Positions 2,680 through 49,968 of a stretch of DNA of 64,000 nucleotides are shown here, piece by piece (the first letter of the stretch is position 1; each line of letters opens with the position of its first letter). The stretch is from contig CALVEL010000003.1 in the NCBI GenBank assembly GCA_944326565.1, forward strand, positions 186,001 through 250,000, in the 5' to 3' direction. Below the pieces are notes generated by a model that worked only from the letters and a program-made list of their open reading frames with translations, was not told the origin of the DNA and ran no database searches. The DNA is from Candidatus Gastranaerophilales bacterium. Lineage in GTDB: Bacteria > Cyanobacteriota > Vampirovibrionia > Gastranaerophilales > Gastranaerophilaceae. The translations under genes were made by a program, and so were the position numbers.

Positions 2680-3433
2680 TTAATCTAATATATAAACAGG
2701 TGAACATCCCCATCCAAAACCATTTTCACAATCTTCTTTATAGTTTTTCTTTGTTATAGTTACATAATAATTAGATCCAGAACACCCATTTACATTTAAG
2801 TTAGCATCTCCGTTAAAAAAACCTGTATTGGTAGATTTTGCAGGCAAATATAAATAAAAAATATCTCTTCCTATTGTATTTGGATTTTTTGCTCCATTCA
2901 CATCCACAAAAATTGTCCTTATACAATTAAAATTAATCCAAGAACCATCCATCAGATAAAATGTCATACCTCTATATGCATTATTCATAAATTGAGGCTG
3001 CTTTTTTTTATTGTACCAAGTATTATCCGCATGCCAGCTTACTTTAGTATTCCGATAATTTTCGAAATTTTGGAAATCCATTTCTTCTAACATTTCATTA
3101 CATTTTAAACCTGATTGTTCCGCGTTAAGTTTTTGTGCAATTCGACACACATATAAAGGCATATCACGCCAATTCGCAAAATCCATTGGAGCACCATCTT
3201 CTGCATACAACATTTGAATAGCTTGTGAAATTATAGAATATTGTTTTTTAAACATTGATTTAAAATGTCTATCTTGCAAATTATTTATCAATGCAGGCAT
3301 AGTCATCGCAGCAACTATCCCGATTATGCCAATTGTTATCAGAACCTCTGCCAATGTAAATCCTATTCTTTTACCAACCAGGAGCTTATTTTCGGGTGCC
3401 CCCCCCCCCCAGAACTTCAATTATAGCCTGCAT
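2680..3433 (-). CDS. prepilin-like protein 1 with a G12 tract, out of frame from its ATG as read
   Basis: Type IV pilin/pseudopilin-like protein: basic leader, cleavage motif KRIG|FTLAEV, hydrophobic helix ITIGIIGIVAAMTMPAL, then a soluble cysteine-containing domain. The best start is ATG 3433, seven bases after AAGGAG. From it the ribosome reads eight codons, enters 12 G (3399-3410) and meets a stop soon after; with 11 G it would run through GGGAPENKLLVGKRIG into the pilin. As read, the pilin frame is reached only from TTG 3420, about 19 bases from the RBS and so poorly placed. The C-terminal domain contains DVNGAKNPNTIGRD, shared by other copies. Likely exported and cleaved by prepilin peptidase (family knowledge). 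Confidence 0.85.
3399..3410 (-). repeat. G12 homopolymer (contingency-type tract) in prepilin 1
   Basis: Twelve consecutive C on the plus strand, G12 in the mRNA, between the ATG and the prepilin cleavage site. ATG to pilin is in frame with 11 or 14 G and out of frame with 12. Flanked by a leader and downstream segment nearly identical to those at 7302, 45580 and 49934. Confidence 0.95.
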
Positions 3434-6594: not shown

Positions 6595-7336
6595 TTAATG
6601 TAATTTTGTAAAGTAATCTTTTTCATTGATTGCTTTTATTGTACACCCAGCTCCATTTACATTACTTGTAGAGGTAGGAGAGCAATATACATCATTTGCA
6701 TTATAATATGTAGTACCTTCTGCCCCCATTGGGAGTAAATTCCCTTTGTTATCTAGTTGGAACATGAAAAGATCATGCCCTAATCGGTTCGGATTTTTGA
6801 GATATCCGTTTACATCTACTGAAATATATATTTGACTACCAACCTCATTTTGCAATAAAATTAGACTTCCATCATTCAATATAAATTGACCGTCATCAAA
6901 TAAACCAAGATTGATATTACTTGTACCGGTAAAATTTTTATATACTTGAGAATTCCTATCTGGATCATTATAATTGGGTATACAAGAAGTTGAAGCTGCC
7001 GTAAATCCCCAGCCACAATCATGTAAAACGTTCATATATTTCATTAAAATCGGCTTCAACTCATGTTGTCCAACTATATCAGAAGTCAATCTTTCACCAT
7101 TTTGCGCATAATACATATTCAGTGCCTGACTTATCACTGAATAATTCTTCTTAAACGCTGTCTCTAACTCTTTATTCTTCTTGTTATTGATTAATGATGG
7201 CAGAGTCATTGCTGCAACTATTCCGATTATCCCTAAGGTTATCAGAACTTCTGCCATTGTAAATCCTATTTTTTTACCTACTAGGAGCTTATTTTCGGGT
7301 GCCCCCCCCCCCCAGAATTTCAAGCATAGTCTGCAT
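6595..7336 (-). CDS. prepilin-like protein 2 with a G12 tract, out of frame from its ATG as read
   Basis: Same design as the copy at 2680: AAGGAG, ATG 7336, eight codons (MQTMLEIL), G12 (7302-7313), then leader APENKLLVGKKIG and the prepilin motif G|FTMAEVLITLGIIGIVAAM. As read, the ATG frame stops shortly after the G run; 11 G would open it. The TTG at 7323 is in frame with 12 G but too far from the RBS. The soluble part contains paired cysteines and DVNGYLKNPNRLGHD. Predicted exported pseudopilin or minor pilin of a type II secretion/type IV pilus-like machine; the assembly genes are not in the window. Confidence 0.85.
7302..7313 (-). repeat. G12 homopolymer in prepilin 2
   Basis: Twelve C on the plus strand, flanked by the shared cassette. 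Eleven G would join ATG 7336 to the pilin frame. The flanking AGGAGCT (RBS side, 7341-7347) and AGCTCCT (7283-7289) are inverted repeats. Confidence 0.95.
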
Positions 7337-9951: not shown

Positions 9952-11085
9952 TTATTTTTGAGTAATTTTTTTGATTAATTCTTTTGTCTGAAGTCTTGTT
10001 TTTTCATCGACTTCAAAAATTTCTTCAATGGTCGGGTTTTGAATTACTTTATGATTATCAAAAATTTCTTTTGTAATTTCGTAAATTTGATATAAGTTTA
10101 TTTTCCCGTCAAGAAATTCAAATACTGCTTCTTCATTTGCAGCATTAAGACAAGCTGTTGCACTGCCACCCATTCTGCCTGCTTTATAGGCAAGTTTCAC
10201 TGTCGGAAATTTTTCAAAATCAGGTTTTTCAAAGTCAAGCCTTGCAATTTCTGAAAAACTAAAGCTTTTTGATTTAATTCCCTCAAATCTTTCAGGATAA
10301 GAAATTGCATATTGAATCGGAATATGCATACTAGGGAGTCCAAGCTGTGCAATTACACTTCCGTCTTTGTATTCGATTGCAGAATGCACAATGCTCTGCG
10401 GGTGAATCACAACTTCTATATCATCATAATCCATTCCGAAAAGATGGTGTGCCTCAATAATTTCCAAGCCTTTGTTCATTAAAGTTGCACTGTCAACTGT
10501 AATTTTGCGTCCCATATTCCATCTTGGGTGTGCTAAAGCTTCTTTGACTGTTGCTGTTTTTATTTCTTCAATGCTTTTGTGCAAAAATGGACCACCGCTT
10601 GCTGTAATTATTAATTTCTCTACTTGCGAAATATCTTTGATACACTGATGAATTGCACAATGTTCGCTGTCAACAGGAATTATTTTAACCCCGTTTTCTT
10701 TTGCTTTTTTCATCACAATATCACCCGCCATTACAAGAGTTTCTTTATTAGCAAGCGCGATATCAATTCCGTTTTCTATCGCTTTTAGTGTCGGTTTTAA
10801 TCCGATTTTTCCGGAACATGCAACTAGAATAATATCGTTCTCCTGATTTTCGGCAATTTCATCAAGATTTTTTAAACTTTTTGTCCCGTCAATTTTTATA
10901 TCTTTTTGAGCATAGATGAATTTCGGCTTAAATTTTTCTGCCTGCTCTTTTAAAAGCTCGGCGTTGTTTCCGCCTGCAAGTGCTATGATTTCAAATTTGT
11001 CCTGAAGTTTTTCAATTACTTCTAACGCTTGGGTACCAATTGAACCTGTGGAACCGATTATGCTTATTTTTCTCTTCTTGTCCAT
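9952..11085 (-). CDS. dxr: 1-deoxy-D-xylulose 5-phosphate reductoisomerase
   Basis: Catalyses the second step of the MEP isoprenoid pathway, DXP to MEP with NADPH. The 377-residue product has the NADPH loop GSTGSIG (11-17), DSEHCAIHQC and ASGGPF around 145-165, and HPRWNMGRKITVDSATLMNKG near 190, all signature segments. ispE from the same pathway lies at 41081. The gene is divergent from the third prepilin gene, whose promoter lies in the roughly 70-base gap. Confidence 0.96.
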   Translation of the reverse strand: MDKKRKISIIGSTGSIGTQALEVIEKLQDKFEIIALAGGNNAELLKEQAEKFKPKFIYAQKDIKIDGTKSLKNLDEIAENQENDIILVACSGKIGLKPTLKAIENGIDIALANKETLVMAGDIVMKKAKENGVKIIPVDSEHCAIHQCIKDISQVEKLIITASGGPFLHKSIEEIKTATVKEALAHPRWNMGRKITVDSATLMNKGLEIIEAHHLFGMDYDDIEVVIHPQSIVHSAIEYKDGSVIAQLGLPSMHIPIQYAISYPERFEGIKSKSFSFSEIARLDFEKPDFEKFPTVKLAYKAGRMGGSATACLNAANEEAVFEFLDGKINLYQIYEITKEIFDNHKVIQNPTIEEIFEVDEKTRLQTKELIKKITQK

Positions 11086-11108: not shown

Positions 11109-11136
11109 TTGATTAATTTTTAAAACATGATATAAT
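11109..11136 (+). promoter_or_regulatory. promoter of prepilin 3
   Basis: TTGATT (11109-11114), 16-base spacer, TATAAT (11131-11136), about 20 bases before GGAGAAAGT-ATG. Confidence 0.6.
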
Positions 11137-11158
11137 ATAAATTGAAATAGGAGAAAGT

Positions 11159-11984
11159 ATGCAAAACACAAGCTATGAGGGAATTGTAGCAGGGGGGGGG
11201 GGGGCTATACAAGGATAGACCGGGCTTTACACTTGCCGAAACCCTGATTACCATTGGTATTATTGGCATTGTTGCCGCTATGACATTACCTGCTATTATT
11301 GGACGATATCAGGAAAAAATTACCGTTAATCAATTAAAACAAACTTATTCATTATTATCACAGGCTTTTGCCTTAGCAATCGAAGAAAACGGTACTGTTG
11401 ATACTTGGTGTGATATACCTTCAACATCTGATTATACAACCTGTCAACATAATATTAATAACATAATAAGTAAGTACGTTAAAAAAATCAAAGAATGTGA
11501 TGGCGTAAATACTTTTTATAAAAAGGCTTGTTTTGCAAAAGAATATGCAAACAGATTTAATGATACAAAGTGGTCAGTTCCACATAACAGACCTTCCTTT
11601 GTTATGATAAATGGTACCTCTGCATCATTTGACTCCCAAAATGGAGATAGATATCATAATCTATGGTGCAACCAAAAAGTATCTTCTTCTCCTACAGGTG
11701 CATATAATAATTCTTGCGGTACTATTTATGTTGATATTAATTCAATTAGAAATCCAAACGTTGATGGGAAAGACTTATTTTCTTTTACAATATATCAAGA
11801 TGGGATAGTACCTACTGGCAGAGCAGTTGACACCGTATGGGTGAAATCATTTGAGAGTCAATGTCTCGGTAAAAGATATCACGGACCTGGAGGATGCACT
11901 GCATGGGTAATATTTAACGAGAATATGGATTATCTGCATTGTGATGATTTAAGCTGGAATGGAAAAATAAAATGCAGTAAATAA
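11159..11984 (+). CDS. prepilin-like protein 3 with a G13 tract, out of frame from its ATG as read
   Basis: ATG 11159 follows AGGAGAAAGT. It reads MQNTSYEGIVAGGGG through 13 G (11192-11204) and then AIQG and TAG at 11216. Deleting one G joins it to GLYKDRPG|FTLAETLITIGIIGIVAAMTLPAII and the complete soluble domain. As read, the only intact start in the pilin frame is the internal ATG 11280, which would remove the processing signal and most of the membrane helix. The leader is unrelated to the cassette shared by the other four G-tract copies. The C-terminal part keeps DINSIRNPNVDGKD and several cysteines. A terminator follows. Confidence 0.8.
11192..11204 (+). repeat. G13 homopolymer in prepilin 3
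   Basis: Thirteen G. The frame from ATG 11159 continues into the pilin with 12 G (or 15), not 13. Sequence context differs from the other four tracts. Confidence 0.95.
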
Positions 11985-12013
11985 AAAAGAGCCTTTTAAA
12001 AAGGCTCTTTTTC
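11985..12013. terminator. bidirectional rho-independent terminator
   Basis: AAAGAGCCTTTT and AAGGCTCTTT arms with A/T runs on both sides, lying between the convergent prepilin 3 gene and the hydrogenase operon end. Confidence 0.85.
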
Positions 12014-22018: not shown

Positions 22019-22771
22019 CTAAGGATTTGGCAGATTTTTCCAATATGTCTTGCTCTCGTCTCCTGGAAATCTATCCATTAATGCAAATCTTGAACAAGCC
22101 GCACCATTATCAGCAGGTGGACAAGTACCACTTACATTACCGTCAAAGGCACAGCAACCGGCATTTTGTGAACCTACATTAGCGAATGTCGTATTCATAC
22201 TTGATGGCAATAGTTGGTCATTTTTAGATATTTGGAAATAAAATACATCATATCCAAATTTATTTGGACCTTTTAGACCATTCGTATCAACTACAAAATC
22301 CAAAGCCCTGTCCCACCAGCAGCCGCTTGAAAAGACTATCATTCCATTTGTTGTTACAAAGGCTCCATTATCATGACTATCTTGATTGAAATTTAATTTA
22401 CCATTCTCTGAACGATAAAAAGCTAATTGTTTATACCCCAAAAAATTCAAGTTAGAGGTATATTCACCATATAGTTTTAACACTTGAAATTGTTTCGAAA
22501 AATCGGTAATAAATCTGTAATCAGAATCATACTGATCAGCACCGCAATAATTTTGCCATAGTTGAGGATTTTCATTACTCATTAAAAGAACTGCCTGATA
22601 CAACATTGCATAAGCTTTTTTAAATTGTGTCTCCAGTTGTTTATTCCTGGCATTATTAATGACTGTAGGCATTGTCATTGCTACAACTATTCCAATTATC
22701 CCGATTGCTATCAGTACTTCTGCCATTGTGAAAGCTAATTTATTCTTAATTCCTACAGCCCAATTTACCAT
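22019..22771 (-). CDS. prepilin-like protein 4, without a G tract
   Basis: A 250-residue pseudopilin-like protein with leader MVNWAVGIKNKLA and motif A|FTMAEVLIAIGIIGIVVAMTMPTV. Residue -1 is Ala rather than Gly. The soluble domain has several cysteines (CCAFDGNVSGTC) and DTNGLKGPNKFGYD, the same calcium-loop-like signature seen in its paralogues. The start is intact (ATG with GAGGA upstream), so it should be constitutively in frame. It faces an XRE regulator across a palindrome (22813-22850), unlike the G-tract copies. Confidence 0.85.
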   Translation of the reverse strand: MVNWAVGIKNKLAFTMAEVLIAIGIIGIVVAMTMPTVINNARNKQLETQFKKAYAMLYQAVLLMSNENPQLWQNYCGADQYDSDYRFITDFSKQFQVLKLYGEYTSNLNFLGYKQLAFYRSENGKLNFNQDSHDNGAFVTTNGMIVFSSGCWWDRALDFVVDTNGLKGPNKFGYDVFYFQISKNDQLLPSSMNTTFANVGSQNAGCCAFDGNVSGTCPPADNGAACSRFALMDRFPGDESKTYWKNLPNP

Positions 22772-44812: not shown

Positions 44813-45614
44813 TTACTTCAAAAGCCAGGATTGATAATAACAAGGCGGACGTTTGCAAAAAGAAGTTTGTGTCAATATATCTTCATTTATGTAAGGAATA
44901 ACTTTTTTATACTTAGCAGAATAAACTGTCCGTTCATTATTTATATCAGCAAATGTAAATATCCACCTATCTCTACCAAATTGATTCGGATTTGAAAAAC
45001 CATTTGTATCTACTAAAAATATGTTTTCTCTAGCACCATATATACACCAGTTTTGTCCACCACCATCTATAAAACACGAAGCTTCACCTTGCATAGGAGC
45101 ACCATTTTCCATATCAATACCATCTGCGGAATTGCCTGATTGACATGAACCACCACACAAGGTATCGCCTTTTTTCCAGCAGCGGTCTATCTGCACATAT
45201 CCACAATCAAGCATTACTTTGAATTTTGATTTTAATATATTAAATTCCTCTGTTGTAGCTGCAGCAGAATATTGTGTTGTTCTTGTAAACTCTTGATTTA
45301 GTAATGCTTCTTGAAATGCTTGGGATATTTCTGAATACACCTTTTTATACGCTGTCTTAAATTGTCTTTCCTGATAATTCTTGATTAGACCGGGTATAGT
45401 CATTGCTGCTACTATCCCGATTATGCCTAAAGTTATCAGAACCTCTGCCATTGTAAAGGCACTTTCAGAAAAGACTTTTGATAAAGCCTTTGGGTGAATT
45501 GATACTTTCTCTTTTTTTAAATCTGTTGGCTTTTGTGTAAATCCTATTTTTTTACCAACCAGGAGCTTATTTTCGGGTGCCCCCCCCCCCCAGAATTTCA
45601 ATCATAGTCTGCAT
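44813..45614 (-). CDS. prepilin-like protein 6 with a G12 tract, out of frame from its ATG as read
   Basis: AAGGAG, ATG 45614, eight codons, G12 (45580-45591), leader APENKLLVGKKIGFT, then an extra ~28-residue linker (QKPTDLKKEKVSIHPKALSK) before a second prepilin motif SESA|FTMAEVLITLGIIGIVAAM. With 11 G the ATG frame would run through; with 12 it stops. The extra linker means the cassette sits in front of a pilin that has its own A|FT processing site. The soluble domain (CWKKGD, SADGIDMENG, DTNGFSNPNQFGRD) is very similar to the product at 49176, so the two are recent duplicates. Confidence 0.85.
45580..45591 (-). repeat. G12 homopolymer in prepilin 6
   Basis: Twelve C on the plus strand. 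In frame from ATG 45614 with 11 G. The RBS AGGAGCT (45619-45625) can pair with AGCTCCT (45561-45567 on the minus strand). Confidence 0.95.
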
Positions 45615-49175: not shown

Positions 49176-49968
49176 TTACTTCAAAAGCCAGGATTGATAA
49201 TAACAAGGCGGACGTTTGCAGTACCATTCCTGGGTTAGTACATCCTCATTTATATAAGGAATAACTTTTTTATAATCTTTAGCATAATCTGCTCTAGTAT
49301 TATTTATATCAGCAAATGTAAACATCCATCTGTCACGACCAAATCTGTTCGGATTTGAAAATCCGTTTGTGTCTACAAAAAATATGTTTTCATTATTACC
49401 AAATGTGCACCAGTTTTGTCCGCCACCATCTATAAAACAGGAAGCTGAACCTTCTTTAGGAACACCGTTTTCCATGTCAATACCATCTGCTGAATTTCCT
49501 GTATTGCAAGCACCTCCACATATTGTATCACCTTTTTTCCAGCAACGGTCTATATCTTGAGAGCCACAATCTAGCATTAATTTGAATTTTGATTTTAATA
49601 TGTTGAATTCTTCTTCTGTAGCGGGTATATCTCTCTTTTCTTTACGGGTAAACTCCTGATTTAGCAATGCTTCTTGGAATGCTTGAGATATTTCTGAATA
49701 TACTTTTTTATATGCCGTTTTAAACTGTCTTTCCTGATAATTCTTTATTAGACCGGGTATAGTCATCGCGGCGACTATCCCGATTATGCCTAAAGTTATC
49801 AAAACTTCTGCTAATGTAAATGCTTTTTTCATACTGACCTCTTTATTGCCTAATATAATATTCATTTTACCATTTTTATGGTCAGTATGCAATCGGTTTA
49901 TTTTTTTACCAACTAGGAGCTTATTTTCGGGTGCCCCCCCCCCCCATAATTTCAATCATAGTCTGCAT
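49176..49968 (-). CDS. prepilin-like protein 7 with a G12 cassette placed before an independently startable gene
   Basis: AAGGAG, ATG 49968, eight codons, G12 (49934-49945), leader APENKLLVGKKI, then ~28 linker residues and a second start MKKA|FTLAEVLITLGIIGIVAAM at 49830 with its own AGAGG. So this gene can be translated from 49830 regardless of the G run, and the cassette would add a leader when 11 G are present. The soluble domain closely matches prepilin 6 (CWKKGD, SADGIDMENG, DTNGFSNPNRFGRD). The downstream end is also alike: its stop is one base from the neighbouring plus-strand stop, as at 44813. Confidence 0.85.
49934..49945 (-). repeat. G12 homopolymer in prepilin 7
   Basis: Twelve C on the plus strand. 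Eleven G would join ATG 49968 to the pilin frame. Flanked by the AGGAGCT (49973-49979) and AGCTCCT (49915-49921) inverted repeat. Confidence 0.95.

Follow-up and report, generated by a model that had tools for sequence, protein, structure and literature searches.

A G13 tract between leader and prepilin in a Gastranaerophilales genome: a probable phase-variable switch

Why should a run of thirteen guanines stand between a short leader, with its own Shine-Dalgarno sequence and ATG, and a prepilin ORF that this ATG does not reach in frame? The locus lies in a window of 64,000 nucleotides (the whole stretch of DNA analysed) from a Candidatus Gastranaerophilales bacterium, and its tract is not there by chance, since shuffles of the window yield no run of nine or more G and the window itself has no G/C runs of 7 to 11 nucleotides. 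Its G/C runs of lengths 1, 2, 3, 4, 5 and 6 number 14199, 2520, 357, 84, 9 and 1, respectively, followed by four runs of length 12 and one of length 13. The four G12 tracts also belong to prepilins (Table 1), so that the tract is present in 5 of the 7 prepilins of the window; the two prepilins without it lie at 22735 (minus strand) and 26996 (plus strand).

Anatomy of the locus and identity of the pilin

The G13 between leader and pilin described in the initial annotation was found by direct reading of the sequence, with CTATACAAGGATAGACCGGGCTTTACACTTGCC immediately 3' of position 11204, and it does contain one G too many for the ATG frame, with 121 nucleotides from ATG 11159 to position 11280, a codon of the pilin frame. 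Past the tract, the prepilin frame reads LYKDRPG/FTLAETLITIGIIGIVAAMTLP, where the slash marks the class III cleavage site after the glycine codon at 11223-11225. The nearest upstream stop in this frame is the TAG at 11187-11189, and no ATG, GTG or TTG was found in it between that stop and the cleavage site. The frame of the ATG, in the assembled state, meets a TAG at the fourth codon past the tract. As the prepilin frame lacks a start before the cleavage site and the ATG frame is stopped, the assembled allele is OFF. Judging by the reading frames, a change of one unit switches the ORF: G12 fuses leader and pilin, and G13 terminates at the TAG.

Table 1. Positions in the window of the features of the target locus and of the other G tracts (a slash marks the class III cleavage site)
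Feature	Position	Strand	Basis
Extended -10 promoter element TGATATAAT	11128..11136	+	Sequence; prediction only
Shine-Dalgarno AGGAG, 5 nt before ATG 11159	11149..11153	+	Sequence
Leader codons MQNTSYEGIVA, from ATG 11159	11159..11191	+	Sequence; homologues among the leaders of the genus
G13 tract (leader-pilin join needs G12 or G15)	11192..11204	+	Sequence
Short ORF of the assembled (OFF) state, MQNTSYEGIVAGGGGAIQG, stop TAG 11216-11218	11159..11218	+	Sequence
Prepilin ORF LYKDRPG/FTLAETLI..., open to TAA 11982-11984	11205..11984	+	Pfam, NCBIfam, model, dN/dS
Probable intrinsic terminator AGAGCCTTTTAAAAAGGCTCTTTTT	11988..12013	+	Sequence only
G12 of prepilin 2680-3420(-), type-1 leader, one G too many (L021)	3399..3410	-	
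G12 of prepilin 6595-7323(-), type-1 leader, one G too many (L022)	7302..7313	-	
G12 of further prepilin (AFTMAEVLI at 45460), type-1 leader, one G too many (L024)	45580..45591	-	
G12 of further prepilin (AFTLAEVLI at 49823), type-1 leader, one G too many (L025)	49934..49945	-	

The ORF downstream of the tract scores 23.5 bits against the Pfam family N_methyl (PF07963; cut-off 21.2) and 21.2 against NCBIfam TIGR02532 (cut-off 16.3), and it carries the features of a class III signal: a G/F cleavage site, Glu at mature position 5 and a hydrophobic N-terminal segment. Its predicted structure consists of one long N-terminal helix (residues 4-56) followed by a beta-rich head (mean pLDDT 75.8), and the top Foldseek match is the gonococcal pilin 1ay2, a weak one (E = 0.25). 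The pilin is under purifying selection, with a dN/dS of 0.12-0.17 over three orthologues (0.12-0.15 for the target compared with the others), and the protein is therefore used. The named relatives are MAGs of Candidatus Gastranaerophilales. The genome contains a single prepilin peptidase (PF06750, E 7.5e-34) and four matches to PF00437 above cut-off, corresponding to ATPases of the T2SSE family.

G tracts of at least nine nucleotides occur at 33 sites in this 1.87 Mb genome, 32 of them between a short leader (RBS plus ATG or GTG) and a prepilin-like ORF. The target protein has 77 relatives in the genome at E<=0.001, so the tract accompanies fewer than half of the pilins. Among the G10 tracts of this genome a single one (L032, at G000:C9:36119) does not precede a prepilin, and it has no clear ORF context.

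Kinship of the leaders and conservation of the tract

The initial annotation took the leader and promoter of this locus to be unrelated to those of the other prepilins, and regarded the recurrence of the tract as independent convergence of two leaders. The leader (30 nt) aligns without gaps over 28 nt, 22 of them identical, to a leader (L148) from another member of the genus; this is the top score (16) among 93 leaders of the genus when its own type is excluded, and none of 1000 dinucleotide shuffles equalled it (maximum 14). Intermediate leaders (those of L147, L135, L010 and G008, for example ATGAAAATGCAGACTATGAGAGGAATTGCGCCA in L147 and ATGCAAGCTATGAGAGGATTTAC in G008) connect it to the type-1 leader, ATGCAGACTATGATTGAAATTAT, through a core CTATGA..GAATT. 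The same genome holds a sister copy of the target leader (L015) followed by G14, and the extended -10 element TGATATAAT is common to the target promoter and eight type-1 tract loci of the genome. Taken together, the kinship of the leaders, the sister copy and the shared -10 element led us to drop the claim of convergence: it is more probable that target and type-1 leaders diverged from a common origin than that they arose independently, and an independent origin of the target leader was rejected on its score and on the intermediates. Nor does a single excess G hold as a general rule, since the sister copy is in the other OFF frame, two G too many or one too few.

Selection for the tract, the conclusion that had been drawn from the two leaders, can nevertheless be kept without that argument, because it is supported by the orthologues, by other genera, by the recurrence of the tract across the genome and by the low dN/dS of the pilin. 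The comparison of tract and flanks proposed in the initial annotation was made among close orthologues and among genera, and its expectation held at the level of genera, where the evidence is better. The orthologue in G001 has G12 at the same position, adjoining the gene that lies at 9952-11085(-) in the window, whose product we take from its sequence to resemble DXP reductoisomerase. Leader and body of this orthologue correspond to the target at about 90%, and the roughly 36 nt directly past the tract are unlike it and resemble the type-1 cassettes of G001 itself (95-100% over 18-20 nt). The orthologue in G003 has G13; the sequence upstream of it is a poor contig end, apparently corrupted towards A, which makes the absence of the ATG there unusable as evidence.

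Other genera have wholly different leaders with G10-G20 at the same place. Those of genus g22 (G034) are of the kind ATGAAAAATTTATTTAGA...CAC-G10, G019 has ATGGAAAGATTTGAC...TTTC-G10, G022 has ATGAAAAA...GACA-G13, and G032 combines a 50-nt leader with G11-G20. In G025 the place is taken by C9 instead of G in prepilin leaders (L262, L270, L276, L282 and L288). A different gene family shows tracts in G026, where several G9-G10 runs lie in a non-prepilin cassette (MADVEIKNGQA-GGG-KPLIPKVLAIF...; L165-L183).

Frame states and the proposed switch

About 23 of the tracts in the assembled genome have one G too many, about six are ON and three are in the other OFF frame. Across genus g1, 77 loci have one too many, 23 are ON and 10 are in the other frame; these 110 classified loci come from those listed by the searches, 33 of 143 having been omitted for want of a clear start or pilin. 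One G too many is also the usual state in G022 (15 of 18 loci) and G032 (8 of 11); in G034 (31 of 39) and G019 (11 of 12) it is one too few, so that the dominant OFF frame can be opposite between genera. When lengths were shuffled among 100 non-redundant loci, the commonest state was expected 42 times and the three states were predicted at 42, 32 and 26; the observed numbers were 68, 22 and 10, and none of 5000 shuffles gave a count as high, although the G count can change by base substitution at either end of a tract while the frame stays as it is, and inheritance of states among related cassettes also weakens the test. This shows that tract length follows the reading frame, meaning that the frame either matters or is inherited, and it does not imply fast switching.

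The frame that each genus mostly occupies is also the one that is closed. In g1, a stop lies within four codons in the majority-OFF frame of 83% of 86 distinct downstream sequences; the other OFF frame has one in 13% and shuffled sequences in 30%, and the corresponding values for G034 are 89%, 8% and 29%. Within one genus this bias may reflect shared descent, yet the frames concerned are opposite in g1 and G034. Where extra sequence, up to about 170 codons of it, separates tract and pilin, no stop interrupts the pilin frame, from which we conclude that the fusion frame is in use. At L134, L141, L200 and L285, extensions of 140-170 codons precede the pilin in frame, with the pilin frame open, and consist of DNA resembling dispersed repeats.

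The reading favoured here, with a probability of roughly 78%, is that the target is a phase-variable (contingency) prepilin, switched ON and OFF by slipped-strand mispairing. Translation would initiate at ATG 11159 and continue through the tract, and a G gained or lost during DNA replication would set the frame downstream. With G12 or G15 (ON), the product would be a prepilin whose N-terminal leader is extended, to be cut by the prepilin peptidase after the glycine at 11223; with G13 (OFF), the ribosome would end at the TAG at 11216. With about 30 such switches in this genome, the cells of one population would display different sets of pilins. We infer that slippage takes place in living populations and that cells produce and export the fusion, and the resulting surface variation may be of benefit in host adhesion or in escape from the immune system or from phages. 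The proposed switch is supported by the precedent of Bifidobacterium breve, in which the layout and the sign of the slippage (-1+3n) are the same. Against switching, the frame states are far from the random thirds expected of fast neutral switching. The genome encodes MutS, and switching rates may therefore be modest; loss of mismatch repair was rejected as a cause of the tracts, because 56 of 59 relatives, among them both tract-rich and tract-free ones, have MutS_I.

The strong bias of frame states, particular to each genus and looking as if the out-of-frame state were maintained, would also be compatible with RNA polymerase slipping, or ribosomes shifting frame, on the G run, by which the DNA would stay at G13 and a small, fixed fraction of the product would be in the pilin frame. 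We consider this unlikely, though transcriptional slippage is conceivable at this locus. The shift required for fusion is +1 in g1 and g10 and -1 in g22 and g7, so that no single ribosomal mechanism fits, and one shared ribosomal frameshift was discarded as the main reading. Moreover, ON alleles are found in most of the genomes sampled in depth, and identical leaders are followed by DNA tracts of unequal length: copies with the same leader in one genome have G12, G11 and G10 in G001, G12 and G13 in G003, G10 and G12 in G034, and G11-G20 on one leader type in G032, these copies being paralogues and not strains.

The exchanged segment past the tract in G001, flanked by an orthologous leader and body, brings to mind a tract that serves mainly as a recombination seam, offering poly-G homology for the exchange of leader halves and pilin N-termini between paralogues. 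This would leave unexplained both the dependence of length on frame and the off-frame stops, and such exchange could simply ride on a tract retained for switching, so that we regard it as very improbable as the main role. Equally little weight is given to an assembly or sequencing artefact (with the true tract in frame) or a pseudogene. Assembled homopolymer lengths may indeed be wrong, homopolymers being error-prone, a caution that was also made for the tracts of B. breve (PMC9187656), and contigs end near such tracts in several relatives. The tracts recur, however, at orthologous places in independent assemblies, their length follows the frame, and the pilin is under purifying selection; a length wrong by one would make the locus ON and leave the proposed switch standing.

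A more elaborate version of phase variation, in which the tract belongs to a composite translational attenuator (default length one base off, a stop placed in that frame and an anti-Shine-Dalgarno segment), is put forward tentatively and seems doubtful. In g1 (for example L001-L031) and G034 (L204-L223), post-tract segments AGCTCCT, CTCTCCT and TCTCCTT are complementary to the Shine-Dalgarno sequence of their own leader (AGGAGCT, AGGAGAG and AAGGAGA, respectively) and abut the off-frame stop. The complementarity is locus-specific in g1, with 6.17 for matched partners, 5.83 for permuted and 4.45 for shuffled ones; in G034 and G023 it is above shuffles and not above permuted partners. No such segment is present at the target locus. 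A related arrangement was observed in G023 (genus g11), in which eighteen prepilins (L309-L328) lie behind an unfused leader with G11 or G12. There, a conserved GACCTCCG, about 40 nt past the tract, can pair with CGGAGGA, the Shine-Dalgarno of the pilin, which follows after another 100 nt or so, and a CCGTG..CACGG hairpin separates them; a single frame is open across CCTCCG, and at the tract length usual in the assembly a stop is met at the third codon. By its predicted pairing, this arrangement, outside the target locus, looks like a phase-variable translational attenuator.

Comparison with known phase-variable systems

If the proposed switch operates, uncultured Gastranaerophilales of the gut, relatives of the cyanobacteria, would maintain large pilin repertoires in which many genes stand behind a slippage switch of their own; genomes of the family contain up to about 115 tracts of at least nine G. 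According to a 2025 review, phase variation at multiple loci has been described chiefly in pathogens, for which database bias may be responsible (PMC11868660). Among the papers searched, none on phase variation in Gastranaerophilales was found.

The closest likeness is with bbr_0113 and bbr_1889 of B. breve UCC2003, a gut commensal in which a leader ORF, a G tract of similar length and an off-frame pilin ORF, annotated in the OFF state, are arranged in the same way; slippage of -1+3n at the intragenic tract joins the short leader ORF to the pilin ORF, and the slipped variants are enriched in mice (PMC9187656). Those genes belong to operons of sortase-dependent LPXTG pili, one or two per genome, whereas the genes described here, from another phylum, code for prepilins with a class III signal and number in the tens per genome, every one behind a separate switch. 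The pilC1 and pilC2 genes of Neisseria also have a poly-G tract (G 9-20; PMC5953494) inside the frame of a type IV pilus gene and are turned ON and OFF at translation. PilC, unlike the present proteins, is not a pilin; it associates with the pilus, modulating retraction and adhesion, and is present in two copies at most. In organisation, the opa family of Neisseria is also comparable, being composed of multi-copy surface proteins, each switched separately, at translation, close to the 5' end. It differs in having a pentanucleotide repeat, instead of a mononucleotide tract, and in coding for outer-membrane proteins, in about a dozen copies, instead of prepilins. For opa, a CTTCT tract is listed (PMC5953494). 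The kind of switch proposed is thus already known, from the G-tract pili of B. breve, from pilC and, by its organisation, from the Opa family; new are the lineage, the number of separately switched prepilins, a leader cassette in which parts are swapped at the tract, and the bias towards one OFF frame.
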